Part shown: positions 476 through 41,437 of the stretch, one piece after another
Layout: the number at the start of each line of letters is the position of its first letter
Numbering within the stretch: position 1 is the first letter of the stretch
NCBI GenBank assembly: GCA_963965975.1
Contig: OZ014412.1
Span: 9,529,849-9,593,848, forward strand
Origin: Xestospongia bergquistia
Lineage: Eukaryota > Porifera > Demospongiae > Haplosclerida > Petrosiidae
DNA: 64,000 nt
Direction: 5' to 3'
Translations under genes and position numbers: made by a program
The notes under the pieces: generated by a model
What the model saw: the letters and a program-made list of their open reading frames with translations, nothing else
The model's database searches: none
What the model was told of the DNA's origin: nothing

Positions 476-3400
476 ATGATAATCAAAAGGGTTTTTAAGA
501 CTGTTTTCATTGTAGTAGTAACCATAACAGTACTGCTAATCGTTGTTACATACTCTTTATGGTGGCATGAGGACAAGGTATTATTATCAGTATCATCAGT
601 GAATAATTTTGAGACTGTAAATGAAACAAAATCTACTGATACATTGACTTCAACAAAATGCAAAGATTATTTTTGTTGTGGACCAGAAGAACTAATTGAA
701 AATAGTAATCTTCCGGTTCGGATGTTAAGTGACAATGAGAAAGCAGGCAACAATATTATGATCACTATCAGAACTACTAAGAAATTTCATCAAAAGAGAT
801 TATCAATCTTATATGATACTTGGTTAACTGTAGTAAATGGTAGTAATGTGTTTTTAGTGACTGATGGAAAAGATGATGAATATCAGAAAAAAAGTAAAAT
901 GTTAGGTAAGTACATCTTTAGAAACACGATTAATTAACATTTGTTATTGTTAAATCTCTCAGTTTTGACTTTTACTAATATTGATTTTAATTTAATTGAA
1001 TACTAACTCTTGTTCTTTGTTATTATTTATTAAGGTATCAATTATGTTGTTATATCTTGTGGACTTAATTACAGCAGGTATTTAATTTTATTTTAATAAT
1101 ATAAATATTATTATTTTTATTTTTAATTTCATAAGATGGAGTTTATGTTGTAAATCAGGAGAAGAAATGGCACTAATGCACAGACCTGAAAATAAACATT
1201 ATGAGTATGTGGTTTTAAATGTATAATTATAAACAATATACAAGAAGTGATTGGCTAAGTTGATAGTATATATTTTTGAGGAATTTGAAAACTAATGATT
1301 TATTGTTCAAGATGACAGACTTGTCATGCATGTGCAAATTAACCCTTGCATAAACTTAAAACAAGATGGTATTATTTTTGGTAGTTAACATTACGTTGAA
1401 ATTAAGTGGTTATTACAAATATTATTTTTTTCTTTTTTTAAGTTGGTTTTGTCATGTGGACGATGATGTTTATGTTATTGTGGATAACTTGATCAAACTG
1501 TTATCAATGATGGATCCTAAAACTGAAGCTAGATACATTGGGAAAGCATTAACTCCATGGAAAAGACCTTATGCAGTAAGTAGTAGTGTGTACATGGCTC
1601 TGAAATGTCACAAGTATAATTATGATAAGTCATTTCAAAAAATGGAATGTGTTTAAAGATGGCAATGCTAGAAAGTACATTAACGAATTAGGGATACAAT
1701 TAAAACATTACTCTACACAGCAATCATTATTAAATAATTTATTAATAGTTGATAGTATCATAAGTGGATTTAATTGTCTTCCTATTGGATAATGGGAAAT
1801 TTGTGTAGAATGTTAATTATAAGAATATCCATGTATTTCACAATCTAAGAGTGATTTGCAAAAACTATTATTTATGAATTACCCAAATAAGGGGAGGGTA
1901 ATATAAATATTATGAATTTACAAAATTTAGTGAATGTAATTTACTCTTTAACAGACTACAATTGAATTTGTGTTTTTTTAGTACAATAATCGGAAGTTCC
2001 ATTTTGCTGCTGGTGGTATGTACTGTTTATCTAAAGCTATGTTAGAAAAAGTCAAACCTTGGTTAGGGTAAGTAAAGATTTTGACTTTGCTGGTACTTAT
2101 GTGTGTGTAGAAATTATTTGCTTGGTTTAGTCTGTCCAAAAATAATGACCAATGTCAATATTGTGTAGATTATACATTGATGTAAAGGATCTACTTAATT
2201 TATTGATGTTTACTTCTACTATAACATTTTCTTGTCTTAATGTTCTATTGCTAAGATGTTGTAACAAACAACACTTAAGTAATAGAATTTTTCCTATGAA
2301 TACATTTCAATAAACAATCTAAACCATAAGATATTGATGACATAATTAATATGATTTCTTGTCCAGGATATTGTTCAAATGATACACTTGCAGTATTTTA
2401 TTATCTGGACTAACATTCTGACTTTATTATAGGAATGGTACTACAATGGCTAAAACATGTGATAAAACACGACAGCCAGAGGATGTGACTATTGGAATTA
2501 CTGTAGGTGAGAGATTAAATAATTTTAAGTATAGTTATGTACCTGATCATGTGTCTATGTATGGATGAATGGCACAATGTTTTTTTTGCTCACAATATTT
2601 TTCAAAACTTGAAGGAATTCAGAGTGTTTATAGAGAGATCATTTAAGTTTTGTATGTTCCTGTTTTAATTTGAACAATACAATACTGGTTGGAACAAGCC
2701 AGAATATAGCTTCTCAGGTAGATGTATGATAATTAAGTGAAGCATTAATCAGTATTAACAGAGAAATTATATATATAAACCTAAAGGGTTTATATATACA
2801 ATATATATAATTTATATATATATAAACCCATATTATATATGTGATATTTATGTCCTTTCTAATTCTTTTGTCCATTCATCAAACATGTTATACTGTAGAA
2901 ATAGAAATGATGTCATCGCCATCTTTTGTATATATTTCTATAGAAATTTTTCAATGTCATTCTAAATAGTGATAGATTCTATCATTATCTTTAAACTCTA
3001 TTCAATGTGGGATTTCTTATATTTGCAATGATTTTTACAATGATTTTCTAAGAAATTTGCAATAATCTGAGCCATATGGTTTGAAATGTTTCTCTGTCAC
3101 TTTAATATTTTTTAAAGAGTGATTAGGTTAAAGTAATATGTTGAACAATAGAGCTACATTTTAAAAAAATACCAGATCATTACATACTCTTTCTCATGCT
3201 CTTCCCCTCACTCTGTCACTCTCTCTCTAGAATTACTGGCCAATGAACGGTTAACACGTACACACTTAATCTATCCACATTCAAATCTTTTATCTCAATT
3301 CAAAATAGACCACAAAACTTTAAAGCAACAGGTGAGAAAAACAGTATTAACTAAGAAAGTATATCTGATGTTGCCTTTTCTCTTCAGATTGGTTTTGCTT

Positions 3401-3600
3401 ATGGGTGTGGTCAGTTATGTCATTTAAAAATATTAAAAAACAATGCAATTAGAGTACCTAATGCAAAATTTCCATATAAAGATGACAAATCAAGGTATAG
3501 TACATTCAAAGCTGTCCAATACAAATATAAATTTCCATTTTTTTATAGGTTTAAATCCCTTCATTGTTATTTATACCCAAAGGCATCCATATGTAATTAA
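476..3600 (+). CDS. fringe-like: Fringe-like beta-1,3-N-acetylglucosaminyltransferase, copy 1
   Basis: Nine exons, all with GT/AG borders: 476-905, 1035-1077, 1136-1204, 1443-1575, 1982-2067, 2433-2506, 3231-3331, 3388-3494, 3549-3600. They splice to 364 codons without a stop. Residues about 9-28 form a membrane anchor after a short basic N-terminus, as in type II Golgi enzymes. Fringe signatures follow in order: RTTKKFHQKR, DTW, VTDG, WFCHVDDD (DDD at 187-189, the Mn/UDP-sugar motif), FHFAAGGMYCLS, PEDVTIG (second-half Asp), FAYG, and a C-terminal FKSLHCYLYP. Fringe enzymes add GlcNAc to O-fucose on EGF repeats of Notch-type receptors in the Golgi. This copy lacks the 27-base microexon 5 of the other four. 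Exons 4 and 6 are both phase 0 at that junction, so the frame holds. Function is inferred from the family; acceptor specificity is unknown. Confidence 0.85.
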
Positions 3601-3938
3601 ATGGAAAATGAATCATTTTGATAAAAGATTTTTGTATGACGTGTTCATTGTTAATTTGAACAATGTAACTTACACATGTACTTTTACAGTTATTTGACTG
3701 TTATATGTATTACAATAGTTTTAACAGACCCTTTAAAATTGTTGTGCTGATCCAAACGACCTGGCATACATACATACATACATACATATATATGTGTACA
3801 TATATAATATTTCTTTAGAAATAAATGGGTATGTTAATGTTATCAGAATAGCAGGTTTTTTGGTTTTTTCGGTTTTAGGTTTTTGTAGAATGACAGCAGA
3901 TTTTTAAAACTATATAATCAATCAATGGCTATAATATA
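3601..3938. other. 3' flank of Fringe copy 1 with short CATA/TA repeats
   Basis: No gene is seen. A CATA-type microsatellite lies at about 3765-3812, followed by A+T-rich sequence up to the gypsy remnant. The LINE tail that follows the other Fringe copies is missing here, so the unit was cut short or the gypsy element replaced it. Confidence 0.5.
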
Positions 3939-5905
3939 TCAGTAATTATCATTGGTCTTAATTTTGAGTTCTTGGAAATAATGATCTGGATATTGACGAT
4001 TACGTCTTGGATATATGAGAGTCTCGGGGACAATATCTTGGTTCTTGTTTTGACCAGGGGGCTCAGGTGGAGCAATGACTTCTTCAGGAGGTGTAACCAT
4101 AGGAGTGGTATCACCTAAAGGAATATCCTGATCTGAAGGGTCTGATTCTGTAGACTGTGGAGTCTCTGTTTGACTTTCCATCTTGAGCTCACACTTGAGA
4201 TCAATATGTCTTTTCCATAATAAATGATCAGCTGTTTCGACAAGATATGTTAGAGGTCCTAGTCTTTCAATAACAACACTTACAGCAGGTACCCAATCAG
4301 GACCAGGACGCATATCACGAGCCATACCGACTGTCCTACAAAGAATTCTTGTTCCTGAGCTTGTCGATCATGCTGAGCCTTCTGCTGAGCTTGTTTTTCT
4401 AAGACTCGAGAGGAATAGTCTGGATGAATTAAATCCGGTCTAGTTCGAATGTGACAATGCAAAAACAGTGATGAAGGAGATACACAAGTAGTAGCATGTG
4501 GAGTACTATAGTAGTTTAACAGAAAATTTGAGAGACAATGTTGAAAAGATAGTCCACAGTTAACAGTAGTCTGAATCTAGCAAAAATGACAAGCAAAATT
4601 TCAATGGTTTTTCAATTTCTTTCCTTCTACAAACACTTCTGGCCACTTAGAATGAGCATCAACAGCAATAAGAAACATTGAACCTTGGAAGGGACCAGCA
4701 AAGTCCAAATGTATTCTCTTCTAGGGCTGATTTGGCCATGTCCATGGCTGTACTGGAGCAACAGCTGGGGAATGCTTAACAGCTTTACACGAAGTACAGC
4801 TTTTGACCACTTCCTCTATTGCTTTATCAAGACCAGGCCACCACATGTAACTTCTTGCAACAGATTTCATGACGTAAGGTAGGGATACAATTTTGTGGCC
4901 ATCCTGATCGAACATAACTTATGACCTTACTTAGAACAGGATCTGTTCTAGTAGCTGTTCCAAGTTGTTGTGAAGTGACAGGGCGGCTCTCCAGTTGTGA
5001 TACATTGAAGACGGCTGGTTCATCAGATGTGATAGGGGCTTCCTGTGATTTCAAAGGTAATCTGGACAAACTGTCAGCGTTAGCATGAGCTTCTGTTGGG
5101 CGATACTCTATGTTGTAGCTATATGCTGGCAAGATCAATGACCAACGCTGTAGACGAGCAGGAGGTAAGGAAGGAGTTCCTCTCTTTGCTCCAAAATTGT
5201 TGTCAGCGGCTTGTGGTCAGTCACTAAAGTAAATGTCTGCCCAAACAGATACATATGGAACTTCTTTACACCAAAGATGATTTCCAGACCTTCTTTCTCT
5301 ATTTGAGAGTAGTTCTGCTCACTCTTAGACAATGTACATGATGCATAGGCAATAGGCTGTTCTTGTCCATCCTCCATTACATGAGAGATTACAGCTCCAA
5401 GGCCGTAAAGAGAAGCATCAGCTGCTAACATAAGGGGTAAACTAGGATCATAATGGGTAACAAAAGTGGAGGATACCAGAACATCCTTGATGTATTGGAA
5501 GGCTTTTGCACAGTCTTTAGTCCATTTCCAATAAGCATCTTTACCCAGTAAACTGTTCAATAGCTGAGTCAGACTAGCTCGATTTGGGATAAATCAACCA
5601 CAATAGTTAAGGAGTCCTAGAAACGCTTGAAGTTCCTGTGCATTCCTAGGTGGTGGTGCGTCAACAATAGCTTTAAACTTGCTATCTGTTGCATGAAGTC
5701 CTTTTGAGTCCACTCAGTGACCCAAATACTCAACACTGTCCTCCATAAAGCGACACTTTTCTAACTTGAGACGTACTCCATGCTTCTGAAGTCTCTGCAG
5801 TACTTCTGACAATTCATTAGGTGTTCTCATCAGATTTACCTGTGTCCTGGACTCTTCATCCAAGATCAGTTGATTGTAAGCATGAGACAAATCAAGTGTA
5901 GTGAA

Positions 5906-6943: not shown

Positions 6944-7065
6944 AACCTCTTGCCACCAGCGAGAGTAGCAAAAATATCCTCTGGTCAAGGTAGTGGGTAC
7001 TTATCTACATCTAGCACTGGATTAACAGTGATTTAATAGTCTCCGCACACTCTGATACTACCACT

Positions 7066-11414: not shown

Positions 11415-14400
11415 ATGAACATCAAGAGAACTTTTAAGATTGTTTTCATTATACTAATAACCATAACAGTACTGCTAGCCATCATTTCATACTCATCATG
11501 GTGGCATGAGGATATCGTATTATTATCAGTATCATCATTGAATAACCTTAAGACTGTTAATAAAGCAAAATCAACATTTGAAAAAAATACTGATTTTTGT
11601 GGTGGAATTGAAAATAGTAATCTTCCTGTTCGGATATTAAGTGACATTGAGAAAGCAGGGAACAATATTATGACCACTATTAGAACTACTAAGAAATTTC
11701 ATCAAAAGAGATTACCAATCTTATATGATACTTGGTTGACTGTAGTAAATGGTAGTAATGTGTTTTTAGTGACTGATGAAGAAGATGATGAATATCAGAA
11801 AAAAAGTAAAATTTTAGGTAAGTACATCTTTAGAAACACTTTTAAAAATTAATGTTTGTTAAGTCTCTCTGTTTTGATTTTTAAAAGCCTTGATTTTAAT
11901 TTAATTGAATGCTAACTTTGGTTCTTTGTTATTATCTATTAAGGCATCAATTATGTTGTTATATCTTGTGGACATAGTTATAGCAGGTATTTAATTTTAT
12001 TTTAATATAAATATTATTTTTTAATTTTTAATTTGTACGTAAGATGGAGTCTATGTTGCAAATCAGGAGAAGAAATGGCCCTAATGCACAGACCTGAAAA
12101 TAAACATTATGAGTATGTGGTTGTAAATGTATATATAAACAATATATCAAAGGATTGTTTGTTGGTTAATTTAGATATTATACATTTTGGGTTTACGAAT
12201 TATAAAAACTAATGATTTAATGTGTTCAAAATTGCAGACTTGTGTATGGATATGCAAATTAACATTTGCATAAACTTAAAAGGATGGTACTATTTTTGGT
12301 AGTTAACATTACATTGAAATTAAGTAGCTATTACAAAAGTTTTTTTCTTTTTAAAGTTGGTTCTGTCATGTGGATGATGATATTTATGTCATTATGGACA
12401 ACTTGATCAAACTGTTATCAAAAATGGATCCTAGAACTGAAGCTAGATACATTGGGAGTCCATTAACTACATGTAAAGAGCCTTTTCCAGTAAGTATTAG
12501 TGTGAACATTGCTCTAAAATGTCATAAGTATACGATAAGTCATTTCAATAAAAAAGGAATATGTTTAAAGATGAATTTCAATTACATAAACTAATTAGGG
12601 ATACAATTAACACATCAATTCTACATAGCAATCCTTATAAGTAATTTATTGAAATTTGATTATATCATAAGTGGATTTAATTGTCTTCCTATTGGATAAT
12701 GGGAAATCTGAGTAAAAGAGTGTCCATAAATATCATAATCTAATAGAGATTTGTGAAAATATTTTTTGTAAATTACACAAATAAGGGGAAAGTAATATGA
12801 AATTATGAATTTGCAAATTTTTATTTATAAAACTTCTTTATAGCTTGATGTGAGACAGCACTTACTGAAGGTAGTTTAATTTTTCATGAAGTACAATTAG
12901 ATTTGTGCTATTTTAGGACAAGACTCAAAAGTTCCATTTTCCTGCTGGTGGTATGTACTGTTTATCTAGACCTATGTTAGAAAAGATTAAACCTTGGTTA
13001 GGGTAAGTAAATGTTTGACTTTGCTGGTACCATATGTGTGTGTACAAATTACATTTATAATCACATGATTGAAAACATTCTAATAGCAACAAGTAAAAAT
13101 GATGTCTATGATAGTAATGGTATTATATCTACATATTTTAATACTAATATTATAAAAACATGCTGTTAATGTGTTGTATTGAATACATGATGCTTTACTT
13201 ATACTCTGGTGTTTTCTTGTCTTAATCTATCATTCTAAGATGTTGTAACAAGCAACGTATTAAAAAATATGAATTTTTCCTATGAATACATTTCAATGGA
13301 CAATTTAAAACATGAGATACTGATGAGATAATTAATATGATTTCTTGTCCAGGATGTTGTTCAAATGATATACCTCTTACAGTATTTTATCTTCTGGACT
13401 AACATTCTGATTTGATCATAGGAATGGTACTACAATGGCTAAAACATGTGATAAAACATTCATGCCAGACGATATGACTATTGGAATGGTTGTAGGTGAG
13501 AGACTAAATAGTTATAAGTATAGTTTACATACTGGTAATGTATTTATGTATACATGTATGATGGCACAATATTCTTTTTGTTCACAGTACAATAAGTTCT
13601 TATGCACTCTTTTCTGAGGCTATGATTTCCAAAGTTATAGTAATCAACTTAACTAAATTGTTGTCTTATCTTTTTATTTTCTAGTAAATTTGTTATAACA
13701 AATATTGTGAAATTTAGGTTAATAATAAATAGGTCAGCAATATCAATATAAACTCAAGACTGTTTGTATATCTGAGACAATGCTCCTGCAAGCATGAAAC
13801 AAACAAAGACTGAGATTTAAAAAATTAACTTGATGAATGCTGAGTGCGCTGATGATGAATTCAGTAGTAATTTGTGAGGTCTTCCTCTAAGCAAAGGGGA
13901 TGACCATGGAAGACTATTAAATAGTCAATTGATAGAGTCTAATAATAAGTATAAACGTTTCATGAGCTTAAACACTATTGTTGATTTTGTAGTATAATCC
14001 TCTGTTTAGAAGTAACAGCTATTGTTATCAAGCCAAGTAGGAATCTGTAGCTAGTCAGCTCAACTGAACATCAAAGCAGGGGGTTGGGCTAATGATTGTG
14101 TTACAGTCTAGCAGAATAGTCTTGTTGTGTATTGTAAACAAAAGTATGAATAAAAACTTAAAAGTTACTACAAGTAAAAGGATAAGCATTTCTTGTTTGC
14201 TAAAGCCAATAATCAGATCTTGATGCACACATATCCCAAGAAACAGATGCAGTGTTATATATAATACAGTAATTGAAATGAAGTAATCTGATTGGTTAAT
14301 ATGATATGAAATTTCTATAATTTACAAAGATTTTTACAGTGATTTCCCAACAAATTAATGATGACTTTGAGCCATATAATTTAAAACTTTTCCCTGTGAT

Positions 14401-14901
14401 TTCAATATTTTAAAGGAATGATTAGTGTTTAAGTAATATATGGAACTACGGAACTTCATGGAATTAATAGTAGCCCATTTTTGTCTGCTTACTCACTATT
14501 TTTCAATCTCACTCTTGCTCTCTCTGTCTCTAGGATTACTGGCCAATGAACGGTTAACACGCACAGAATTAATACATCCACATGTAAAGGTTTTATCTGA
14601 AATTAAAGTGGACCAAAAGACTTTAAAGAAACAGGTGTGAAATACAACATTAACTAAGAATGTACTTCTAATGTTGTCCTACCTTTCAGGTTGGTTTTGC
14701 GCATGGCTGTGGTCAGTTGTGTCATCTAAAAAAATACAGAAGGAATGCAATTAGAGTACCTAATGCAAGATTTCCATACAAAGTTGATCAATCAAGGTAT
14801 AGGGCATTTAAATTTTCTCATATGAATACAAGTTTCATTATTTTTATAGGTTTAAATCCCTTCATTGTTATTTATACCCAAAGGCTTTTATATGTAATTA
14901 A
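11415..14901 (+). CDS. fringe-like: Fringe-like beta-1,3-N-acetylglucosaminyltransferase, copy 2
   Basis: Ten exons: 11415-11817, 11944-11986, 12044-12112, 12357-12489, 12844-12870, 12917-13002, 13422-13495, 14534-14634, 14690-14796, 14850-14901. They sum to 364 codons with no stop. The type II anchor is at about residues 9-28. The DDD motif (HVDDDIYVI) is at 178-180 and PDDMTIGMVVG retains the second-half Asp. Microexon 5 encodes LDVRQHLLK. Differences from other copies: FHFPAGG instead of FHFAAGG (shared with copy 4), AHGC instead of AYGC after the exon-9 start, and a weaker donor GTGTGA after exon 8. The N-terminal stem is shorter than in copy 1. It is likely a Golgi Notch-type glycosyltransferase by homology. 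Confidence 0.85.
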
Positions 14902-18612: not shown

Positions 18613-21600
18613 ATGAACATCAGCAAAACTTTCAAGATTGTTTTCATTATAATAGTAACCATAACAGTAATGCTAGCCATCATTTCATACTCATCACGGT
18701 GGCATGAGGATATCGTATTATTATCAGTATCATCATTGAATAACCTTAAGACAGTGAATAAAGTAAAATCAGCAGTCGAAAACAATGCTGTTAAAGTTAC
18801 AACATCTAGTCCTTCTCCAACTGTTTCCACTTTGAAATCTGATTTTTGTGGTGGAATTGAAAATAGTAATCTTCCAGTTCGGATATTAAGTAACAATGAG
18901 AAAGCAGGCAACAATATTATGATCACTATCAGAGCTACTAAGAAATTTCATCAAAAGAGATTGTCAATCTTATATGATACTTGGTTAACTGTAGTAAATG
19001 GTAGTAATGTGTTTTTAGTGACTGATGGAGAAGATGATGAATATCAGAAAAAAAGTAAAATGTTAGGTTAGTACATTTTTAGAAACACTTTTTAAAATTA
19101 ATGTTTGTTAAGTCTCTCTGTTTTGACTTTTAAAAGCCTTGATTTTAATTTAATTGAATACTTTGTTATTATCTATTAAGGTATCAATTATATTGTTATA
19201 TCTTGTGGACATAGTTATAGCAGGTATTTAATTTTATTTGAATATAAATAATATTTTTTAATTTTTAATTTGTACGTAAGATGGAGTCTATGTTGTAAAT
19301 CAGGAGAAGAAATGGCACTAATGCACAGACCTGAAAATAAACATTATGAGTATGTGGTTGTAAATGTATATATAAACAATATATCAAAGGATTATTGGTT
19401 TGTTGATTAATTTGTTATTGTACATTTTAAGTTTACGAATCATAAAAACTAATTATTTAATGTGTTCAAAATGGCAGACTTGTGTATGGATATGCAAATT
19501 AACCCTTGCATAAACTTAAAAAGGATGGTATTATTTTTGGTAGTTAACATTATATTGAAATTAAGTAGTTATTGCAAAAGTTTTTTTTTCTTTTTTAAGT
19601 TGGTTCTGTCACGTGGATGATGATTTTTATGTCATTATGGACAACTTGATCAAACTGTTATCAAAGATGGATCCTAGAACTGAAGCTAGATACATTGGGA
19701 GTCCATTAACCCCATGTGAAGGGCCTTCTCCAGTAAGTATTAGTATGAACATAGCTCTAAAATGTCATAAGTATATGATAAGTCATTTCAATAAAAAGGA
19801 ATATGTTTAAAGATGAATTTCAATTACACAAACTAATTAGGGATACAATTAACACATCAGTTCTATACAACAATCCTTATAAGTAATTTATTGAAATTTG
19901 ATGGTATCATAAGTGGATTTAATTATCTTTCTATTGGATAATGAGAAATCTGAGTAAAAGAGTCTCCATGAATTCCATAATCTAAGAGAGATTTGTGAAA
20001 ATATTTTTTGTAAATTACACAAATAAGGGGAAGGTACTATTAAATTATGAATTTGCAAATTTTTATTCTTTATAGCTTGATGTGAGACAGCACTTACTGA
20101 AGGTAATTTAATTTTTCATGAACTACAATTAGATTTGTGCTATTTTAGGACAAGACTCAAAAGTTCCATTTTGCTGCTGGTGGTATGTACTGTTTATCTA
20201 GACCTATGTTAGAAAAGATTAAACCTTGGTTAGGGTAAGTAAATATTTGATTTTGCTGGTACCTTATGTGTGTGTACAAATCATTTGACATTAAATTTAT
20301 AATCACATGATTGAAAAAATTCTAATAGCAACAAGTAAAAATGATGTCAATGATAGTAATGACATTATATCTACATATTTTAATACTAATATTGTAAAAA
20401 TATGCTGTGGTGTTGTTTCTATGTGTTATATTGAATACATGATGTTTTACTTATACTCTGGTGTTTTCTTGTCTTAATCTATAATTTTAAGATGTTGTAA
20501 CAAACGACATATTAAAAAATATGAATTTTTCTTATGAATACATTTCAGTGGACAACCTAAAACATGAGATACTGATGAGATAATTAATATGATTTCTTGT
20601 CCAGGATATTGTTCAAATGACACATTGTCTGGACTAACATTCTGATTTTATCATAGGAATGGTACTACAATGGCTGAAACATGTGATAAAACATTCACGC
20701 TAGAGGATATGACTGTTGGAATGGTTGTTGGTGAGAGACTAAATAGTTTTAAAATAGTTATGTACCTGGTCATGTATCTATCTATACATGTATGATAGCA
20801 CAATGTTCTTTTTGTTCACAGTGCAATATAATTCCAAAACTAGATTTAAGTTATTGTTTTTGTTTTAATTTGAGCAATACAATACTGGTTGGAACAAGCC
20901 AGAATATAGGTGTCAGGTAGATGTATGATAATCAAGTTAAGCATTAATTAGTATCAAATGAAAATATGTATAAATAATTAAGTATATATATATATATATA
21001 TATATAATCTGTAGCTAATCAGCTCAACTGAACATCAAAGCAGTGGGTTGGGCTAATGATTGTGTTACAGTCTAGCATAACAGTCTTGTTGTGTATTGTA
21101 AACAAAAGCATGAATAAAACGTTTAAGTACTTTAAGTTACTACAAGTAAAATTCCTTAAGCCAATAATCAGACCTTGATGCACACATATCCAAAGAAACA
21201 GATGCAGTGTTATAATAGAGTAATTGAAATGAAGCAATCTGATTGGTTAATATGGCATGAGTCAGTTATACACCTCAATCTCATTAGCTAACAAAGGTGT
21301 TACACTCCAGCAAAAATAGTTTTGTTATGTCCTTTCTAACTTTTTTGTCCACTCACCAAATTTGTTATAATGTGGAAATGAAAATGATGTCATCGCAATC
21401 CTTTGTATATATTTTTAACTGTTATTACTAAGTAGTAAAAAATTCTATCATAAGCTTTGAGCTCTATTCGATATGAAATTTCTATAATTTACAAAGATTT
21501 TTACAGTGATTTTCCAACAAATTGATGATGACTTTGAGCCATATAATTTAAAACTTTTCCTTGTGACTTCAATATTTTAAAGGAATGATTAGTGTTTAAG

Positions 21601-22069
21601 TAATATATGGAACTACGGAACTTCATGGAATTAATAGTAGTCCATTTTTGTCTGCTGTCTCACTATTTTTCAATCTCACTCTTGCTCTCTCTGTCTCTAG
21701 GATTACTGGCCAATGAACGGTTAACACGCACAGAATTAATACATCCACACGTAAAGGTTTTATCTGAAATTAAAGTGGACCAAAACACTTTAAAGAAACA
21801 GGTGAGAAATACAGTATTAGCTAAGAATGTACTTCTAATGTTGCCCTACCTTTTCAGGTTGGTTTTGCTTATGGCTGTGGTCAGTTGTGTCATCTACAAA
21901 AATACGTAAAAAATGCAATTAGATTACCTAATGCGAAATTTCCATACAAAGTTGATCAATCAAGGTATATGACATTTAAGTTTTCCAATATGAATACAAT
22001 TTTCATTATTTTTATAGGTTTAAATCTCTTCATTGTTATTTATACCCAAAGGCTTCCATATGTAATTAA
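18613..22069 (+). CDS. fringe-like: Fringe-like beta-1,3-N-acetylglucosaminyltransferase, copy 3
   Basis: Ten exons: 18613-19066, 19181-19223, 19281-19349, 19600-19732, 20076-20102, 20149-20234, 20657-20730, 21701-21801, 21858-21964, 22018-22069. They sum to 381 codons with no stop. It has the longest stem of the array, because exon 1 has an extra 17-residue insert containing KVTTSSPSPTVST, a Ser/Thr/Pro-rich segment that could be O-glycosylated. The DDD motif (HVDDDFYVI) is at 195-197. LEDMTVGMVVG keeps the second-half Asp. The first donor is GTTAGT rather than GTAAGT. The anchor and the C-terminal FKSLHCYLYP match the other copies. Confidence 0.85.
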
Positions 22070-23771: not shown

Positions 23772-24630
23772 AGGACGTAAGGTAGGGATACAATTTTGTG
23801 GCCATCCTGATCGAACATAACTTATGACCTTACTTAGAACAGGATCTGTTCTAGTAGCTGTTCTAAGTTGTTGTGAAGTGACAGGGAAGCTCTCTAGTTG
23901 TGATACATTGAAGACGGCTGGTTCATCAGATGTGATAAGGGCTTCCTATGATTTCAAAGGTAATCTGGACAAACTGTCAGCGTTAGCATGAGCTTTTGTT
24001 GGGCGATACTCTATGTTGTAGCTATATGCTGGCAAGATCAATGACCAACGCTGTAGACGAGCAGGAGGTAAGGAAGGAGTTCCTTTCTTTGCTCCAAAAT
24101 TGTTGTCAGCGGCTTGTAGTCAGTCACTAAAGTAATTGTCTGCCCACACAGATACTTATGGAACTTCTTTATACCAAAGATGATTTTCAGAGCTTCTTTC
24201 TCTATTTGAGAGTAGTTCTGCTCACTCTTAGATGATGTACATGATGCATAGGCAATAGGCTGTTCCTGTCCATCCTCCATTACATGAGAGATTACAGCTT
24301 CAAGGTTCGTAAAGAGAAGCATCAGCTGCTAACATAAGGGGTAAACTAGGATCGTAATGGGTAACAAAAGTGGAGGATACCAGAACATCCTTGATGTGTT
24401 GGAAAGCATTTGCACAGTCTTTAGTCCATTTTCAATGAGCATCTTAACCCAGTAAACTGTTCAATAGCTGAGTCAGACTAGCTCAATTTGGGATAAATCG
24501 ACTATAATAGTTAAGGAGTCCTAGAAACGCTTGAAGTTCCTGTGCATTCCTAGGTGGTGGTGCATCAACAATAGCTTTCAACTTGCTATCTGTTGCATGA
24601 AGTCCTTTTGAGTCCACTCGGTGACCCAAT
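23772..24630 (-). mobile_element. Ty3/gypsy pol fragment (RT end and RNase H)
   Basis: On the minus strand it gives the same RT/RNase H segment as 3939-5750, with EAVISHVMEDGQEQP, YASCTSSKSEQNYSQIEKEA, LVTDYKPLTTIL and the downstream cysteine-poor linker. Stops occur in the RT part (about 24430-24500). It ends abruptly at TGACCCAA (24629) against the duplicated block that matches 9334 onward. Both gypsy fragments are close enough to derive from one element or from segmental copying. Confidence 0.8.
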
Positions 24631-25538: not shown

Positions 25539-26268
25539 GTATGCAAACGACTTTATTGTACCAATAAAGAGCATATTGTGATAACTGTTATGTCAAATCC
25601 TAGAAAGTCAGTATATTTAGTACAGTACTGTAACTCTCTGATCAGCTAAGTGATAATACTTATATAAGTTGGATAGCCTGGATTATTTATTAAAATTTAT
25701 ATATTAGCTGAAAAGTATAGCAGGAAAATTGTAAAGTAACTATCATATTCCTAAGTGTGACTGAACCACATATACTTATATATAAATTTATACAGAAACT
25801 AAGAAAAAGTTAGATGCACTGTTCAGATTATTTGCCTCATGCTCAGATGATTGGCAATAACTATAAGAATCATAAATAATGCCACTGAGGATTGTCCCTA
25901 ATAAATAAGTTTAAAAAGCCCCTCCCCCTGAACTTTAAATCTTAACTCAACTCTAAACTGACAGGATTACTTAGCCTTTAGGAAGGTACATATAATATTT
26001 ACATGTAAAGTCCAAAAGGACTACCTGAGATCTGGCATGGCAATGTCTATAGACAATTAACATCAAAGGACAATAAATGAACTGACAAAGAGTTATGTAT
26101 AAAGAAAAATGACTAATATAGTAAAATTGTTAGAGTTAATGATGACAGTATTCCTATAGTAAAGCTGATTAAGATAATCTTGTGGTAATTGTATCGTAAA
26201 GATTGATGTGAAGACGAATATCTTTTGGGAATTAATTTAGCTCTAATCCCTTTCATCAACACATAGTT

Positions 26269-26495
26269 ATGAATATCAAAAGGGTTTTTAAGACTGTTTT
26301 TGTTATAGTAGTAACCACAACAGTACTACTGATCATCGTTTCTTACTCTTTACAGTCACATGGGGACAAGGTATTATTATGAGCATCATCATTGAATAAC
26401 TTTGAGACTGTAAATAAACAAAATGTACTGGTACATTGACTTCAGCAAAACACAAAGATTATTTTTATTGTGGACCAGAAGAACTAATTGAAAAT
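26269..26495 (+). pseudogene. Truncated Fringe-like 5' exon
   Basis: ATG, then NIKRVFKTVFVIVVTTTVLL (the membrane anchor) as in the intact copies. A TGA interrupts after about 38 codons, in GTATTATTATGAGC, and one base is missing further on near GTAAATAAACAAAATG. The homology ends in the ELIENM region at about 26495, where repeat sequence related to 17790 begins. The remaining nine exons are absent. Confidence 0.85.
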
Positions 26496-27501
26496 ATGCT
26501 CATATTAATATTGTCAGAATTTAATAAATTGGCAAATTTACTACCTACGTCACATACACCGTTTTGTAAGATATTTACCAAATTATTCTTATCAAATTAA
26601 CTTGCAATATGATATCTCACAAGCTATAAATTGATCAGAATCTCTTGGTATTAGATCATGTTTTAACAACTAGGAATATTTAGATATGCATGGTTTGCCT
26701 TGCACAGTATAAAGCTGGATTTACTAATAATAGTAGCTTTGATCTTGCCAGAATAAAAGTAAACTTTAGTATTTGTAGCACAATTTCTGTATAGCTAGCT
26801 TCTAACTTAGTCTTGATCTTTTTTGCTTTTACACTGCTCTGTATAAAGCATCCTTCTGCTTTTTAATTGTTTTAAGTTTGCTCCTCTTTGAGTTTTTGCA
26901 TCGCTATATGTCAATTATTATATTATCTGTGGACATGACTGAACGTGTACTCTTGCAATCTGTGATTTTGTTTTCCAGTAAAGTAATCATTATATTCCTA
27001 ATGAATCACATATACTTATATATAATTTTATATATAAAATAAGGCAATATTTTGATGCATTAATCGAATTAGTTGCCTTGTGCTAATTAATGTGCTCAGC
27101 AATAACTATAAGAATCATAAATAAAGCCATTAAGGATTGTCTCTATAAAAAGATCACTCCCAGTGAACTTTAAATCTTAACTCTAAAGTAATTATAGGAT
27201 TACTTTGCCTTTAGAAGATACACATAGTAATAAAATGTAGAGTCCAAAAGACTTTCTGAGACCTAGCACAGAAATGTCCACAGTCAAGGACAATAAATGA
27301 ACTAACAAAAGAGTTATGTATATTAAGTAAAAATAAATAATATAACAAAATCTTTAGAGTTATGGATGACAGTATTCCTAGAGTAAACTGATTAATATAC
27401 TAAAATCTAATTTTGTGGTAAATATATGATAAAGTTTGATGTCAAGACAAATATGTTTTGGAAATTAATTTAGCTCTAATCCCTTTCGTTAACACAGAGT
27501 T
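26496..27501. repeat. Second upstream block, Fringe unit 4
   Basis: No gene is seen. It contains the 10540-type repeat at 26625-27010, then the sequence that precedes each Fringe ATG, ending with GTTAACACAGAGTT. The duplicated upstream region after the broken copy indicates an unequal exchange between two units. Confidence 0.5.
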
Positions 27502-30500
27502 ATGAACATCAAGAGAACTTTTAAGATTGTTTTCATTATACTAGTAACCATAACAGTACTGCTAGCTCTCATTTCATACTCATCATGGTGGCATGAGGAT
27601 ATCCTATTATTATCAGTATCATCATTGAATAACCTTAAGACTGTGAATAAAGTAAAACCAACAGTTGAAAACAATACTGATTTTTGTGGTGGAATTGAAA
27701 ATAGTAATCTTCCAGTTCGGATATTAAGTGACATTGAGAATGCAGGGAACAATATTATGATCACTCTTAGAACTACTAAGAAATTTCATCAAAAGAGATT
27801 ATCAATCTTATATGATACTTGGTTAACTGTAGTAAATGGTAGTAATGTGTTTTTAGTGACTGATGGAGAAGATGATGAATATAGGGAAAAAAGTAAAAAG
27901 TTAGGTAAGTACATTTTTAGAAACACTTTTTAAAATTACTGTTTGTTAAGTCTCTTGGTTTTGACTCTTAAAAGCCTTGATTTTAATTTAATCGAATACT
28001 AACTTTTGTTCTTTGTTATTATCTATTAAGGCATCAATTATGTTGTTATATCTTGTGGACATAGTTATACCAGGTATTTAATTTTATTTTAATATAAATA
28101 TTATTTTTTAATTTTTAATTTATATGTAAGACAGAGTCTATGTTGCAAATCAGGAGAAGAAATGGCACTGATGCACAGACCTGAAAATAAACATTATGAG
28201 TATGTGGTTGTAAATGTATATATAAACAATATATCAAAGAATTATTGGTTTGTTGGTTAATTTTGATATTATACATAAGTTTACGAATCATAAAAACTAA
28301 TGATTTAATGTGTTCAAAATGGCAGACTTGTGTACGGATATGCAAATTAACCTTTGCATAAACTTAAAAAGGATGGTATTATTTTTGGTAGTTAATGATA
28401 CATTGAAATTAAGTAGTTATTACAAAAGTTTTTTTTTCTTTTTAAAGTTGGTTCTGTCATGTGGATGATGATATTTATGTCATTTTGGACAACTTGATCA
28501 AACTGTTATCAAAGATGGATCCTAGAACTGAAGCTAGATACATTGGGAGTCCATTAACTACATGTAAAGAACCTTTTCCAGTAAGTATTAGGTAATATTA
28601 AATTATGAATTTGCAAATTTTTATTTATAAAACTTCTTTTATAGCTTGATGTGAGACAACACTTGTTGAAGGTAATTTAATTTTTCACAAACTACAATTA
28701 GATTTGTGCTCTTTTAGGACAAGACTCGAAAGTTCCATTTTCCTGCTGGTGGTATGTACTGTTTATCTAGACCTATGTTAGAAAAGATTAAACCTTGGTT
28801 AGGGTAAGTAAATGTTTGACTTTGCTGGTACCTTATGTGTGTGTACAAATCATTTGACATTAAATTTATAATCACATGATTGAAAATATTCTAATAGCAA
28901 CAAGTAAAAATGATGTCAGCGATAGTAACGGCATTGTATCTACATATTTTAATACTAATAATTATTATAAAAACATGCAGTTAATGTGTTATATTGAATA
29001 TATGTTTTACTTATACTCTGGTCTTATATAAGACTTTGGTCCTATAACAAACAACATGTTAGAAAATATGATTTTTTCCTATGAATACATTTCTATGGGC
29101 AATCTTAAACATGAGATACTGATGAGATAATTAATATGATTTCTTGTCCAGAATATTGTTCAAATGATATACCTCTTACAGTATTTTATTGTCTGGACTA
29201 ACGTTCTGATTTGATCATAGGAATAGTACTACAATGACTAAAACATGTGATAAAACATTCATGCCAGACGATATGACTATTGGATTGGTTGTAGGTGAGA
29301 GACTAAATAGTTTTAAGTATAGTTATGTATCTGGTCATGTATTTATGTATACACATATGATGACACAATGTTCTTTTTGTTCACAGTGCAATATAATTCT
29401 AAAACTAGATTTAAGTTATTGTTCTTGTTTTAATTTGAGCAATACAATATTGGTTGGAACAAGCCAGAATATAGGTGTGAGGTAGATGTATGATAATCAA
29501 GTGAAGTACTAATTAGTATCAAATGAGAATATGTATAAGTATATATATATACAAACCATGCTTTGACTTAAATGACCAATAAGATTACTCCGTTTGAGGA
29601 GGTGTATAAGTTCTCATGCACTCTTTTCTGAGGCTATGATTTCCAAGGTTACAGTAATCTACTTAACTAAATTGTTGTCTTATCTTTCTGTTTGTAGTAA
29701 ATGTATTATATCAAATATTGTGGAATTTATGTTCATAATAAATAGGTTGACAATATCAAAATTTATATAAACTCAAGACTGTTTTTATATCTCAGATAAT
29801 GCTCTTGAAAGCATGAAACAAACAAAGATTGAGAATTAAAAAATTAACTTGATGAATGCTGAGTGCACTGGTGATGAATTCAGTGGTAATTTGTGAGGTC
29901 TTCCTCTAAGCAAAGGGGATGGCCATGGAAGACTATTAAATAGTCGATTTTCCATTGATGGAGTCTAATACTAAGTATAAACATTTCCATAAGCTTAAAC
30001 ATCATTGTTGATTTTGTAGTATAATCCTCTGTTTAAAAGTAACAGCTCTTGTTATCAAGCCAAGTTGGAATCTGTAGCTAATCAGCTCAACTGAACATCA
30101 AAGCAGTGGGTTGGGCTAACGATTGTGTTACAGTCTAGCAGAATAGTCTTGTTGTGTATTGTAAACAAAAGCATGAATAAAAAGTTTAAGTACTTTAAGT
30201 TACTACAAGTAAATGATAAGCATTCCTTGTTTGCTAAAGCCAATAATCAGATCTTGACGCACACATATCCAAAGCAACAGATGCAGTGTTATAATACAGT
30301 AATTGAAATGAAGTAATCTGATTGGTTAATATGGCATGAGTCATTTATACACCTCAATCTCATTAGCTAACAAAGTTGTTACACTCTAGCAAAAACAGTC
30401 TTGTTATGTCCTTTCTAACTCTTTTGTCCACTCACCAAATGTGTTATAATGGGGAAATGAAAATGATGTCATCACCATCCTTTGTATATATTTTTAACTG

Positions 30501-31148
30501 TTATTACTAAGTAGTAATAGATTCTATCATAACCTTTGAGATCTATTTGATATGAAATTTCTATAAATTACAAAGATTTTTACAGTGATTTTCCAACAAA
30601 TTGACGATGACTTTGAGCCATATAATTTAAAACTTTTCCTTGTGACTTCAATATTTTAAAGGAATGATTAGTGTTTAAGTAATATATGGAACTACAGAAC
30701 TTCATGGAATTAATAGCAGCCCATTTTTGTCTGCTTTCTCACTCTTTTTCACTCTCACTCTTGCTCTCTCTGTCTCTAGAATTACTGGCCAATGAACGGT
30801 TAACACGCACAGAATTAATACATCCACATGTAAAGGTTTTATCTGAAATTAAAGTGGACCAAAAGACTTTAAAGAAACAGGTGAGAAATACAGCATTAGC
30901 TAAGAATGTACTCCTAATGTTGTCCTACCTTTTCAGGTTGGTTTTGCTTATGGCTGTGGTCAGTTGTGTCATCTAAAAAAATACATAAAAAATGCAATTA
31001 GATTACCTAATGCGAAATTTCCATACAAAGATGATCAATCAAGGTATAAGACATTTAAGTTTTCCAATATGAATACAATTTTCATTATTTTTATAGGTTT
31101 AAATCTCTTCATTGTTATTTATACCCAAAGGCTTCCATATGTAATTAA
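27502..31148 (+). CDS. fringe-like: Fringe-like beta-1,3-N-acetylglucosaminyltransferase, copy 4
   Basis: Ten exons: 27502-27904, 28031-28073, 28131-28199, 28448-28580, 28645-28671, 28718-28803, 29221-29294, 30780-30880, 30937-31043, 31097-31148. They sum to 364 codons with no stop. The DDD motif (HVDDDIYVILDN) is at 178-180, and PDDMTIGLVVG is kept. It shares FHFPAGG with copy 2. The start of exon 3 reads RQSLCC where the others have RWSLCC (two base changes). Exon 2 ends YTR instead of YSR. Intron 4 is only 64 bases, against about 350 in copies 2 and 3, through an internal deletion starting right after the donor. It is predicted to be a Golgi type II enzyme like its neighbours. Confidence 0.85.
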
Positions 31149-34610: not shown

Positions 34611-34612
<2 letters not shown>

Positions 34613-34790: not shown

Positions 34791-34829
34791 GTAAGTTATT
34801 TCATTAATATTTTATTGGAATGATTTTAT

Positions 34830-36830: not shown

Positions 36831-37729
36831 AAAGACTTTCTCTTCTTTTCTTTCGCGAACGCATGGGTACAAGTCTTATTTATAACTTACTTATAGCCTC
36901 TGCTCGTAAGTAAAACCATAGAGTACGTACTGGGATTGGAATCGGATCATGTGATCCATAGAACATTCGAAAACGCACTCTGTGTCCAAAGAAATCAATT
37001 AATTTATATTACTTGACATTGTAAACTGGACACACTCTTACCTGTATTGTATTACCCTATAAAGGCATTAATGTATTTTTTATTTATCAACCAATTGACT
37101 ATATATTTTTCTTTATATTATATTATTAAAAATAGTCAATAACACAGACATTCACTTTTAAATTATTTATTTAAATAATGTCATGATCAATCAACAAAAA
37201 CTGCAGTGAATAATCTAAGTGAGTGCATTTTCAGATGAAGCAAATGAAATGGATCAGGAACTGGTGGCAGTGACTAAAGTTAATAACTACATTCTTTGTC
37301 TGCGCTAAGAGAGAGATTCCATTCCTTGGGATTAATGCCTAAATAATCAGATGACAGGTCATTTATTAGATTGGTTGCAAAAGTTGATACAATCTCCCTG
37401 GTTCAGGTCTAGAGCACCATTTAAACAGGAAATCTGTACTATCTAACACTTGTGTAGCGACTGGTGTACCAATTTTAAAACCTGCTTCTGAAAGAGCTCC
37501 TTGTATTATTATACTAGCAAAAAGACTTCTGTTTTACTGTGACTGTGACCTTACATTATCAGTAAATTAATTGTCAGATTAATAATAATTACTTCAAATA
37601 AGTATTTATTATAAAGTAACACTTAATTAAAGTAAAAATTCCAACTACAAGCTTGTTTCAGAAGAAACAGGAGAAGTACAAGCTATAGTTATATGCTGTT
37701 GTCAGCTGCCGGGTGTGCGTGGGCGTTGC
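36831..37729. other. Intergenic sequence with repeat 36990-37165 and decayed coding trace
   Basis: 36990-37165 is the second copy of the repeat at 7066-7240. On the minus strand, about 37520-37375 reads GALSEAGFKIGTPVATQVLD then FKWCSRPEPGRLYQLLQPI before stops. It looks like decayed coding sequence, and I cannot assign it. Nothing else is supported. Confidence 0.35.
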
Positions 37730-37943
37730 CAATCCCGGTACCGGTTACGTATGTATGGTAAAACGTCATCAATAAAAACCCAGCCCATTGTTCGTGGGCT
37801 TCCTTTAATGTGTTGATTAAACTTAGCTATTAACAGTTCTTGTGTTGTGCTGGAGACGTCGTAGCCAAGCTTAAGTTGACTCCACAAGAGGAATAGTGTT
37901 TTTAGAAGCAGAGAAATTAACACAAGTGATGAGACTCACTCCG
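37730..37943 (+). promoter_or_regulatory. Exon-like upstream module of Fringe copy 5
   Basis: CCCGGTACCGGTTACGTA, ACGTCA at 37763-37768, AATAAAAACC as a TATA-like box, and the conserved stretch GTGTTGTGCTGGAGACGTCG ... ACTCCG|GTATGC. It lies 0.7 kb before the ATG of copy 5. The minus-strand open frame over it is not conserved between units. A non-coding first exon on + is the preferred reading. Confidence 0.4.
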
Positions 37944-38649
37944 GTATGCAAATTGTACCAATAAAGAGCATATTGTAATGTCAAATTCTAGAAAGTCAGT
38001 ATATTTAGTACAGTACTGTAACTCTCTGATCAGCTAAGTGATAATACTTATATAAGTTGGATAGCCTGGATTATTCATTAAATTTATATATTAGCTGAAA
38101 AGTATAGCAGGAAAATTGTAAAGTAACTATCATATTCTTAAGTGTGACTGAACCACATATACTTATATATAAATTTATATAGAAACTAAGAAAAAGTTTA
38201 ATGAACTGTTCAGATTATTTGCCTCATGCTAAGATGATTGGCAATACCTATAAGAATTATATATAATACCACTGAGCCAAGTTTAAAAAGCCCCTCCCCC
38301 TGAACCTTAAATCTTAATTCAACTCTAAACTGACAGGATTACTTAGCCTTTAGGAAGGTACATATAATAATTACAGTTAAAGTCTAAAAGGACTACCTGA
38401 GGTCTGGCATGCCAATGTCTATAGACAATTAAAATCAAAGCACAATAAATGAACTGACAAAGAGTTATGTATAAGTAAAAATGACTAATATAGTAAAATT
38501 GTAAGAGTTAATGATGACAGTATTCCTACAGTAAAGCTGATTAAGATATTAAAATCTAATCTTGTGGTAATTATGTCATAAAGATTAATGTGAAGATAAG
38601 TATCTTTGGGAATTAATTTAACTTTAATTCCTTTCTTTAACACAGGATT

Positions 38650-41437
38650 ATGATCATCAAAAGGGTTTTTAAGACTGTTTTCATTACAGTAGTAACCATA
38701 ACAGTACTGCTAATCGTTGTTACATACTCTTTATGGTGGCATAAGGACATGGTATTATTATCAATATCATCATTGAATTACTTTGAGACTGTAAATGAAA
38801 CAAAATCTTCAACGAAATGCAAAGATTATTTTTATTGTGGACCAGAAGAACTAATTGAAAATAGTAATCTTCCAGTTCGGATATTAAGTAACAATGAGAA
38901 AGCAGGCAACAATATTATGATCACTATCAGAACTACTAAGAAATTTCATCAAAAGAGATTACCAATCTTATATGATACTTGGTTGACTGTAGTAAATGGT
39001 AGTAATGTGTTTTTAGTGACTGATGGAGAAGATGATGAATATCAGGAAAAAAGTAAAAAGTTAGGTAAGTAGATTTTTAGAAACACAATTTTATGTAATT
39101 AACATTTGTTTTTGTTAAATCTCTCAGTTTTGACTTTTACTAATATTGATTTTCATTTAATTGAATACTAACTCTTGTTCTTTGTTATTATTTATTAAGG
39201 TATCAATTATGTTGTTATATCTTGTGGACTTAGTTATAGCAGGTATTTAATTTTATTTTAATATAAATATTTTTATTTTTAATTTCATAAGATGGAGTTT
39301 ATGTTGTAAATCAGGAGAAGAAATGGCACTAATGCACAGACCTGAAAATAAACATTATGAGTATGTGGTTTTAAATGTATAATTATATAAACAATACAAG
39401 AAGTGATTATTGTCTTGTTGGTTAATTTGATAGTATATATTTTTGAGGAATTTGCAAATGATAAAAACTAATGATTTAGATGTAGTTAACATTACATTGA
39501 AATTAAGTGGTTATTACAAATATTATTTTTTTCTTTTTTAAGTTGGTTTTGTCATGTGGATGATGATATTTATGTCATTATGGATAACTTGGTCAAACTG
39601 TTATCAAAGATGGACCCTAAAACTGAAGCTAGATACATTGGGAAATCATTAACTCCATGGGAAAGACCTTCTCGGGTAAGTAGTAGTGTGTAAATGGCTC
39701 TGAGATTTCGTAAGTATATAGTAAGTCATTGATATAAAAGAATAATTATGTTGAAAGATGACAATGCTGAAAAGTAGAAATACTAATAGAATATTGTCCA
39801 TGAATTGCATAATCTAAGAGTGATTTCCGGAAATTCTTATTTGTGAATTACCCAATGAAGGGAAGAGTTTTATGAATATTATTTGCAAAACTTTATCATT
39901 TAAATTTTTTTATAGCTCGATGGGAGACAACACTTAGTGAAGGTAATTTAATATTTTGTGGACTACAATTGGATTTGTGCTGTTTTAGGACAAGACTCGA
40001 AAGTTCTATTTTGCTGCTGGTGGTATGTACTGTTTATCTAGACCTATGTTAGAAAAAGTCAAACCTTGGTTAGGGTAAGTAAATTTTTCACCTTTGCTGG
40101 TACTTATGTGTGTGTGCAAGTTATTAGCATAGATTACTCTGCCCCTAAGATTAGGATTATTGTAGTATTGTAGTACAAATATTATAAAGACATGTTGCTG
40201 TTATAGTCAATACATGATGTTTTAATTATACTATGACATCTATCATTCAGCTATTGTTAATATTTATGTTGTGGCTAATAACACTTAAGTAATATAAATT
40301 TTTCCTATGAATACATTTTAATGGACAGTCTATAAACCATGAGATAGTGATGACATAATAATGTGATTTCTTGTCCAGGATATTATTCAAATGATATACC
40401 TCTTACAGTATTTTCTTGTCTGGACTAACGTTCTGATTTGATCATAGGAATGGTACTACAATGACTAAAACATGTAATAAAACATTCATGCCAGAGGATA
40501 TGACTGTTGGATTGGTTGTAGGTGAGAGACTAAATAGTTTTAAGTATAGTTATGTACCTGGTCATGTGTTTATGTTTGTATGTATGATGGCACAATGTTC
40601 TTTTTGTTCATTGTACAATATAATTCAAAAACTAGAAGGAACTTAGACTATTTTAGAGGATTATTTAAGTTTTTTTCTGATTTTAATTTGAGCAATACAA
40701 TACTGGTTGTAACAACTATATATAATTATATATATATATATATAATTAATATATATAATATATATATATATAATCTTTCTAATTCTTTTGTTTTGGAAAC
40801 GTATATGATGTCATTGCCAACATAACTGTTATTAGTGATAAATTCTATCATCTATTATTAGCTTTGAGTTCAATTCAATGTGAGATTTTTAAAATTTATG
40901 ATGATTTTTAGAATGATCTTTAAAAAAATTAACTATGACTCTGACTGATATAATGTAAGACTTTCCTCTGACTAGATATAAATAATCTATGGAAATATGG
41001 AGCTGCATGGAAAAAACAGTATATAATCTCTCTCTCTCTCTCTCTCTTTCTCTTTCTCTCTCTAGAATTACTGGCCAATGACCAGTTAACACGCACACAA
41101 TTAATCTATCCACATTCAACGGTTTTATCTAAAGTTAAGGTAGACCGAAAAACTTTAAAGAAACAAGTGAGAAATATAACATTAACTAAGAATGAACTTC
41201 TAGTGTTGTCTTACTTTTTTGAGGTTGGTTTTGCTTATGGGTGTGGTCAGTTATGTCATTTAAAAAAATACAGAAGGAATGCAATTAGAGTACCTAATGC
41301 AAGATTTCCATACAGACATGATCTGTCAAGGTATAGTATTACATTTAAATTTTTCTATAGAATACACGCTTCATTATTTTTATAGGTTTAAATCCCTTCA
41401 TTGTTTTTTACACCCGAAGGCTTCCATATGTAATTAA
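38650..41437 (+). CDS. fringe-like: Fringe-like beta-1,3-N-acetylglucosaminyltransferase, copy 5
   Basis: Ten exons: 38650-39064, 39200-39242, 39292-39360, 39543-39675, 39916-39942, 39989-40074, 40448-40521, 41066-41166, 41224-41330, 41386-41437. They sum to 368 codons with no stop. Exon 1 matches copy 1 best (MIIKRVFKTVFI, then FYCGPEELIENSNLPVR). DDD is at 182-184 (HVDDDIYVI), PEDMTVGLVVG is present, and the end is FKSLHCFLHPKASICN. Microexon 5 gives LDGRQHLVK. The acceptor of exon 8 follows a pure (TC)n run at 41030-41064. It is predicted to be a Golgi type II glycosyltransferase acting on O-fucosylated EGF repeats. Copies 1 and 5 form one subgroup by exon 1, copies 2-4 another. Confidence 0.87.

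Follow-up and report, generated by a model that had tools for sequence, protein, structure and literature searches.

Fringe-type enzymes tune the Notch cell-communication pathway in other animals, for which one to three Fringe genes are usually described. A 64,000-nucleotide stretch of the genome of the sponge Xestospongia bergquistia (contig C2, C2:9529849-9593848; hereafter, the window) carries five Fringe-like genes in a row, and this locus raises the question of what the genes encode and why they were kept. The answer that we favor, with somewhat better than even confidence, is that the window genes encode Fringe glycosyltransferases of family GT31, type II Golgi enzymes that would act on the O-fucose of EGF repeats, and that the genes were duplicated in tandem and mostly retained by moderate purifying selection. 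The genome searched for related genes comprised 146 Mb in 21 contigs.

Five uninterrupted Fringe-like genes in the window

The repeat layout was obtained from stop-to-stop frames, which included five similar first exons, and from a comparison of the window with itself, which revealed tandem repeats. Splice sites were derived from an alignment of the five genomic copies. The array spanned positions 476-41437 on the plus strand (copy 1 began at 476, and copy 5 stopped at 41437), and the distance between successive gene starts was 7.2-11.1 kb. The genes and their main parts were as follows, in window positions.

476..3600, plus strand: Fringe-like copy 1, 364 amino acids, spliced model without premature stop, Pfam Fringe E value 1.1e-41
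476-905, 1035-1077, 1136-1204, 1443-1575, 1982-2067, 2433-2506, 3231-3331, 3388-3494, 3549-3600, plus strand: exons of copy 1
11415..14901, plus strand: Fringe-like copy 2, nine exons, 355 amino acids, Pfam Fringe match
18613..22069, plus strand: Fringe-like copy 3, nine exons, 372 amino acids, additional Ser/Thr/Pro stem segment, Pfam Fringe match
27502..31148, plus strand: Fringe-like copy 4, nine exons, 355 amino acids, Pfam Fringe match
38650..41437, plus strand: Fringe-like copy 5, nine exons, 359 amino acids, Pfam Fringe match
1443..1575 (copy 1) and 12357-12489, 19600-19732, 28448-28580, 39543-39675 (copies 2-5), plus strand: exon 4, metal-binding DDD motif (WFCHVDDD)
2433..2506 (copy 1) and 13422-13495, 20657-20730, 29221-29294, 40448-40521 (copies 2-5), plus strand: exon 6, second acidic site (PEDVTIG in copy 1)
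3549..3600 (copy 1) and 14850-14901, 22018-22069, 31097-31148, 41386-41437 (copies 2-5), plus strand: exon 9, Fringe-type C-terminus FKSLHC
26269..26433, plus strand: broken further copy, exon 1 only, with in-frame stops, inside 25789-26496, an 87% repeat of window 1-704

All five genes had nine coding exons and closed at a single stop. Exons 2-9 were identical in length in the five copies (43, 69, 133, 86, 74, 101, 107, and 52 nt), and exon 1 varied from 403 to 454 nt. The introns were of the GT-AG type in 40 of 40 cases, and no premature stops or frameshifts were found in the five copies. Exon 2, only 43 nt long, brought exons 1 and 3 into the same reading frame. A splice model omitting this exon was dropped; exon 2 was kept because it had its own AG and GT, because it restored the frame when exon 1 ended at its consensus donor, and because it aligned to the matching stretch of mouse Manic Fringe. 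Intron 4 was 137 nt in copy 4, whereas it was 313-427 nt in the remaining four copies. The proteins of copies 1-5 had 364, 355, 372, 355, and 359 residues, respectively; copies 2-5 were 77-84% identical to copy 1, and hydropathy indicated a hydrophobic stretch near the N-terminus of all five.

These models agreed with the central claim of a preliminary description of the window, which was that five intact Fringe-like genes lay in tandem at this place and on this strand, spliced in phase, and that copy 3 had an additional Ser/Thr/Pro segment. The protein lengths of 364-381 codons given there did not hold (we found 355-372 residues), so the earlier splice choices must have differed slightly from ours.

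Five similar genes in a row could in principle be produced by an assembly artefact, such as haplotypes that were not merged. We regarded this as extremely improbable in view of the protein identities of only 77-84% to copy 1, the divergence of the introns (6.7-22.6% of sites per pair), the unequal intron lengths, and the fact that a single 16 Mb contig carried all the copies one after another.

The window genes match Fringe among the GT31 enzymes

The Pfam Fringe model (PF02434) matched all five window proteins, with a best E value of 5.3e-45; the score of copy 1 was 143.3 bits, and the curated cut-off is 21. Because C1GalT1, B3GLCT, and chondroitin synthase 3 belong to the same GT31/Pfam Fringe fold family, the Pfam match could also come from another GT31 group that was miscalled as Fringe. 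The Pfam match was indeed shared by other genes of this genome: two loci that matched PF02434, L003 (C15) and L040 (C9), were closest in the PDB to chondroitin synthases (E values of 8.8e-50 and 2.3e-11, respectively). The window genes were compared with GT31 enzymes that have solved structures, and closeness to Fringe was judged among these enzymes only. A profile of the five copies matched mouse Manic Fringe (2j0a) with an E value of 1e-32, in an alignment that began where the catalytic domain begins and reached the final Cys, and the next matches were B3GLCT (0.0043), C1GalT1 (0.023), and chondroitin synthase 3 (CHSY3; 0.13). Copy 4 searched singly aligned with the entire catalytic domain of Manic Fringe (1.2e-35), and C1GalT1 came next at 0.0051. 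Overall, C1GalT1 (7q4i), B3GLCT (12em), and chondroitin sulfate synthase 3 (9q8z) had E values of 0.004-0.15 to the profile and 0.005-0.56 to copy 4. The Manic Fringe match took in the full domain with its C-terminus and led the next enzyme by about 30 orders of magnitude, on which ground a chondroitin-synthase or C1GalT identity of the window genes was rejected; the miscall of any of these GT31 groups as Fringe is very improbable. The family match thus supported the Fringe-type assignment that the preliminary description had made.

The motifs pointed in the same direction. Manic Fringe (2j0a/2j0b) is the mouse O-fucosylpeptide beta1,3-N-acetylglucosaminyltransferase, and the window genes resembled it in the full-length catalytic domain, the DDD, the second Asp, and the C-terminal SLHC..LYP..C. 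In Manic Fringe, the DDD is metal binding and the second Asp is catalytic. WFCHVDDD was present in all five window proteins, as was the second Asp, in the form [P/L][E/D]D; in the alignment with Manic Fringe, PEDVTIG of copy 1 stood opposite PDDCTVG. FKSLHC was likewise present in all five and aligned to FRSLHC of Manic Fringe, and copy 5 read LHP where LYP was expected. Hence, the conservation of the DDD, the second Asp, and the FKSLHC-type C-terminus that had been claimed earlier was found in every copy.

The C15 and C9 loci that matched PF02434 were left out of the Fringe count; five frames were read in four loci, and the three frames other than those of L003 and L040 (two in L001 and one in L039) were called chondroitin-synthase-like by eye only. 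Clusters of such frames lay at C15:1.01, C15:2.02-2.03 Mb, and C9:1.21-1.25 Mb, and the DDD was absent from both C9 frames that were read.

The array is part of a larger set of Fringe-type genes

The preliminary description had counted five genes. The array was indeed present, but five was an undercount; the array ran on upstream of the window and was the local view of a genome-wide family. On C2, candidates for the DDD exon were sought with the exon types of the window genes, and exons were then chained around each candidate, on both strands for the stretch at 9.48-9.59 Mb and on one strand for the other C2 regions examined. This yielded 14 full gene models of the C2 subfamily, of which 13 were unbroken. 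The stretch at 9.48-9.57 Mb contained nine of the 14, including the five window genes and one gene on the opposite strand; four more lay at 10.80-10.83 Mb, and the last lay at 12.25 Mb. A model without three exons marked a fifteenth C2 place at 9.63 Mb, and additional fragments were found at 10.81-10.85 Mb.

Two other sets of Fringe-type sequences were found. C3 carried a single conventional Fringe gene with ten exons and 336 residues; as single sequences, this gene fitted Manic Fringe somewhat better than did window copy 4 (3.2e-41 versus 1.2e-35). A minisatellite with a unit of about 43 nt (counted by eye) filled an intron of the C3 gene at about 904.0-904.65 kb. On C1, the part of the Pfam model that holds the DDD exon had 19 matching places: one was at 8.78 Mb, and the others formed clusters at 5.17-5.54 and 9.22-9.34 Mb. 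The DDD exon itself was read in 8 of the 19, which may not all be working genes. Two C1 models were complete (5.163-5.169 and 8.777-8.782 Mb), and the latter matched Manic Fringe with an E value of 1.5e-25. A third complete chain was discarded, as its 3' exons were taken from a neighboring gene. One C1-type first exon contained a stop, and the other C1 genes were incomplete within the sequence examined. The C1 set is a divergent second Fringe-like subfamily. Intron positions differed among the sets: the C3 gene had ten exons, the first two were fused in C2, and two other pairs were fused in C1. Altogether, about 35 places matched the DDD-exon part (15 on C2, 19 on C1, and 1 on C3), with two short extra C2 fragments left uncounted; these and the other genome-wide counts of domain matches given here are lower bounds.

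A 23-row tree split the C2, C1, and C3 genes, together with Manic Fringe, from the chondroitin-synthase-like genes of the same genome with support of 100/100. Placement in a GT31 tree had been suggested earlier as a check on Fringe identity, and the split is one part of that check; the tree was built without C1GalT and B3GLCT, it held a single Fringe from outside this genome, and the program flagged several of its branches as long. As to the place of Manic Fringe, the approximately unbiased (AU) test rejected neither a clade of the genome's own genes (p-AU, 0.31) nor a grouping of C2 with Manic Fringe (p-AU, 0.289). The p-AU value for a grouping of C2 and C1 without C3 was 0.049.

These gene sets are most simply explained by an expansion of Fringe-type enzymes that is specific to this lineage. 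Fringe has been reported to be present in another sponge, Amphimedon queenslandica, as it is here (PMC2770060). The consulted portions of the literature searched, with subscription papers mostly outside its scope, contained no description of a multi-copy Fringe array or expansion (PMC2770060, PMC10970066, PMC8166818, PMC6040629, PMC3482393, and PMC4810162).

Most copies appear to be under moderate purifying selection

The ratio of nonsynonymous to synonymous substitution rates (dN/dS) was estimated via NG86, with 95% bounds from codon resampling. Among the window copies, dN/dS was 0.45-0.75. The values below 1 that had been proposed as a check on function were obtained as point values in 10 of 10 pairs; the upper bound fell below 1 in only 7 of the 10. 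For the stem alone, dN/dS exceeded 1 in two window pairs (1.04 and 1.10). Across the 13 unbroken genes of the C2 subfamily, the median dN/dS was 0.43, and the upper bound was below 1 in 70 of 78 pairs; in none of the 91 pairs that included the frameshifted gene as well (14 genes) did whole-gene dN/dS reach 1.

Constraint differed along the gene. The ratio pN/pS, pooled over the 13 genes, was 0.70 for the stem, 0.25 for the catalytic part of exon 1, 0.53 for exon 2, and 0.06 for exon 3, and it was 0.44, 0.36, 0.82, 0.50, 0.46, and 0.35 for exons 4-9. Thus, constraint was strongest in exon 3, followed by the catalytic part of exon 1. The preliminary description had exon 1 and the stem as the most variable parts and the catalytic exons as the least; the stem was indeed high, but exon 6 was higher, and the catalytic part of exon 1 was among the most constrained. 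Exon 6, the site of the second Asp, has 24 codons, and its high value is at most a hint.

The sequence around the coding exons was decaying, as the preliminary description had said. Over the ten window pairs, introns diverged at 16.1% of sites, exons 2-9 at 9.2%, and exon 1 at 10.2%. Introns had 349 gap openings (20.1 per kb), about 30 times the rate of exons 2-9, where there were 4 (0.6 per kb). Exon 1 had 14 (3.5 per kb), and every one of these kept the reading frame. The four gaps in exons 2-9 were not real because they came from a single 2-nt gap that the aligner put inside the copy 4 stop codon. The broken exon 1 fragment at about 26.27-26.43 kb was a further sign of this decay.

Should the copies instead be seen as young, largely redundant tandem duplicates under relaxed selection, drifting toward pseudogenes and of no special use? 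The moderate dN/dS values, including the three window pairs compatible with 1, would fit such drift, as would the one frameshifted gene among 14, the incomplete copies at 26.27 kb of the window and at 9.63 Mb of C2, and the stop in one C1-type first exon. We consider drift of this kind quite unlikely, given that exons 2-9 were equal in length in all five window copies with no real gap, versus 20.1 gaps per kb in introns, and given the median dN/dS of 0.43 over 78 pairs. In addition, when one copy was allowed to evolve neutrally in a simulation, 439, 170, and 15 of 2,000 runs were without stops at 0.03, 0.05, and 0.10 substitutions per site, respectively; the 8.5% of simulated genes spared at 0.05 per site contrasts with the 13 of 14 real genes that were unbroken. 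The codon data supported purifying selection of moderate strength on the copies.

Notch pathway genes in the same genome

One Notch receptor locus was found, on C11, with EGF, LNR, and ankyrin domains. An EGF frame of 435 residues at this locus contained five C-x4-[S/T]-C motifs, which we take to be the O-fucose consensus. The only other LNR locus found was on C12. It was rejected as a second Notch; it had DMAP_binding matches as well as Stealth_CR3 matches that were below cut-off, a combination that fits GNPTAB. A search with the NOD domain gave no match, not even in the controls, and is uninformative by itself. One CSL locus was found.

Matches to the DSL (Delta/Serrate ligand) domain were numerous. 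We counted 53, as domain matches rather than gene models: 39 at C1:14.75-16.03 Mb, 10 on C8, 2 at C1:5.59 Mb, and 2 at C1:26.89 Mb, so that 49 of the 53 fell in C1:14.75-16.03 Mb and C8:0.27-0.50 Mb. Of the 13 MNNL matches, 10 were on C8, each within about 0.5 kb of a C8 DSL match, and 3 were on C11. L034, the sole locus read of the large C1 set, had DSL and no MNNL match in the frames scanned. For the two DSL loci that were read, the scan covered 8 of the 26 listed frames and detected no EGF domain. In Amphimedon, too, MNNL was detected by software in only one of five Deltas, and that Delta was without EGF repeats (PMC3482393). The C1 DSL set may represent candidate Delta ligands. A single Notch, DSL loci in which no EGF domain was detected, and the size of the genome are all compatible with a sponge, which the preliminary description had taken the source to be. 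Some 1.3 kb beyond the DSL exon at L034 (2096-4257; C1:15.946-15.952 Mb), a frame weakly matched 7tm_2, the secretin-type seven-transmembrane domain (E value of 0.0037, below cut-off); the exon and this frame could belong to either adjacent genes or an unusual fusion.

The co-occurrence of many Fringe-type genes and many DSL matches with one Notch locus was, in our view, the most interesting observation, and it may be chance, being a concurrence in one genome. If it holds, the modifier and ligand sides of Notch signaling would be expanded (about 35 Fringe-type places and 53 DSL matches), while the receptor and the transcription factor would be single (one Notch and one CSL).

Three other families of glycosylation enzymes were searched as well. 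O-FucT had 17 matches genome-wide, and five of them were tandem C-terminal fragments. This array (C1:9154396-9173253) had copies 4.2-4.8 kb apart and lay about 46 kb from a C1 Fringe cluster; four fragments covered positions 246-325 of the 326-position profile, and one covered 222-325. The 4.7 kb locus L038, which included the ends of two repeats, had a POFUT1-type C-terminus and also frames that resembled a short-chain dehydrogenase by eye. As only the C-terminal part of the profile was covered, the fragments were not counted as enzymes, and the array was rejected as a co-expanded partner in the pathway. Galactosyl_T (5 matches) and Glyco_transf_90 (8 matches in about four places) were not expanded like Fringe.

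A proposed role for the array and its weak points

The pathway we propose starts with five proteins that would sit in the Golgi membrane as type II enzymes, where, with UDP-GlcNAc as the donor, they would add GlcNAc in beta1,3 linkage to the O-fucose of EGF repeats on cell-surface proteins. EGF repeats are probably the substrate of the expanded Fringe-type enzymes, be they those of Notch, of its ligands, or of other proteins. The targets would include the single Notch receptor found, and the modification would alter the choice of Notch ligands that are bound. The copies would have arisen through tandem duplication inside a lineage-specific Fringe subfamily; most would have been retained under moderate purifying selection, and they may differ in expression or in the EGF repeats that they favor. 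The suggestion of the preliminary description that several Notch-modifying enzymes were selected for is therefore plausible.

Several observations weigh against this proposal. The Cys of the PDDC motif in Manic Fringe was replaced by Val or Met in all five window genes, a difference whose weight depends on the unsure value of this Cys as a defining residue; at the same position, the C3 gene had Met, and the two complete C1 models had Ile or Val. A long branch (1.35) separated the C2 subfamily from the other Fringes, and one of its 14 genes (at 9.508 Mb) was frameshifted just past the start codon. A dN/dS of 1 stayed within the bounds for 3 of 10 window pairs, and stem dN/dS was at least 1 in 9 of 91 subfamily pairs (frameshifted gene included). 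Finally, the conventional Fringe on C3 could cover the canonical role unaided.

Some of these points would be expected if the window enzymes had kept the Fringe fold and catalytic residues and changed their acceptor or donor. They would then decorate other surface or matrix glycoproteins, for example in adhesion or defense, and the C3 gene would be the canonical Fringe. The long branch of the C2 subfamily and the conventional C3 gene fit this idea, and exon 6 with its second Asp was as free as the stem (pN/pS of 0.82 and 0.70). The two DSL loci without an EGF domain in the frames scanned also imply that the EGF repeats of ligands may not be the target. A shift in acceptor or donor is nonetheless doubtful, if far from negligible, because constraint was tight on exon 3 (0.06) and on the catalytic part of exon 1 (0.25), the DDD, second Asp, and C-terminus were retained, and the exon 6 value was based on so few codons. 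We continue to favor enzymes that act on the O-fucose of EGF repeats.

A broader and unlikely extension of this role is a combinatorial surface code, in which dozens of Fringe-type enzymes would write glycan states on EGF repeats, dozens of DSL proteins would read them, and one Notch would signal, serving the recognition of individuals or cell types beyond developmental boundaries. The sponge could serve as a natural system for testing whether Fringe paralogues share out the EGF repeats of one receptor and what role Notch glycosylation has in an early-branching animal.

Other features of the window

SRCR-domain repeats were located 3' of the array at 45554-47670, 53814-55983, and 60502-60815, and in the frame at 46550-46960, an astacin end was joined to an SRCR start. 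Retroelement remains were found at 3939-5725 (minus strand), with the RNase H domain of a reverse transcriptase at 5138-5593 (minus strand), and at 23774-24629; the sequence at 4871-5725 recurred at 23774-24629 with 96% identity.

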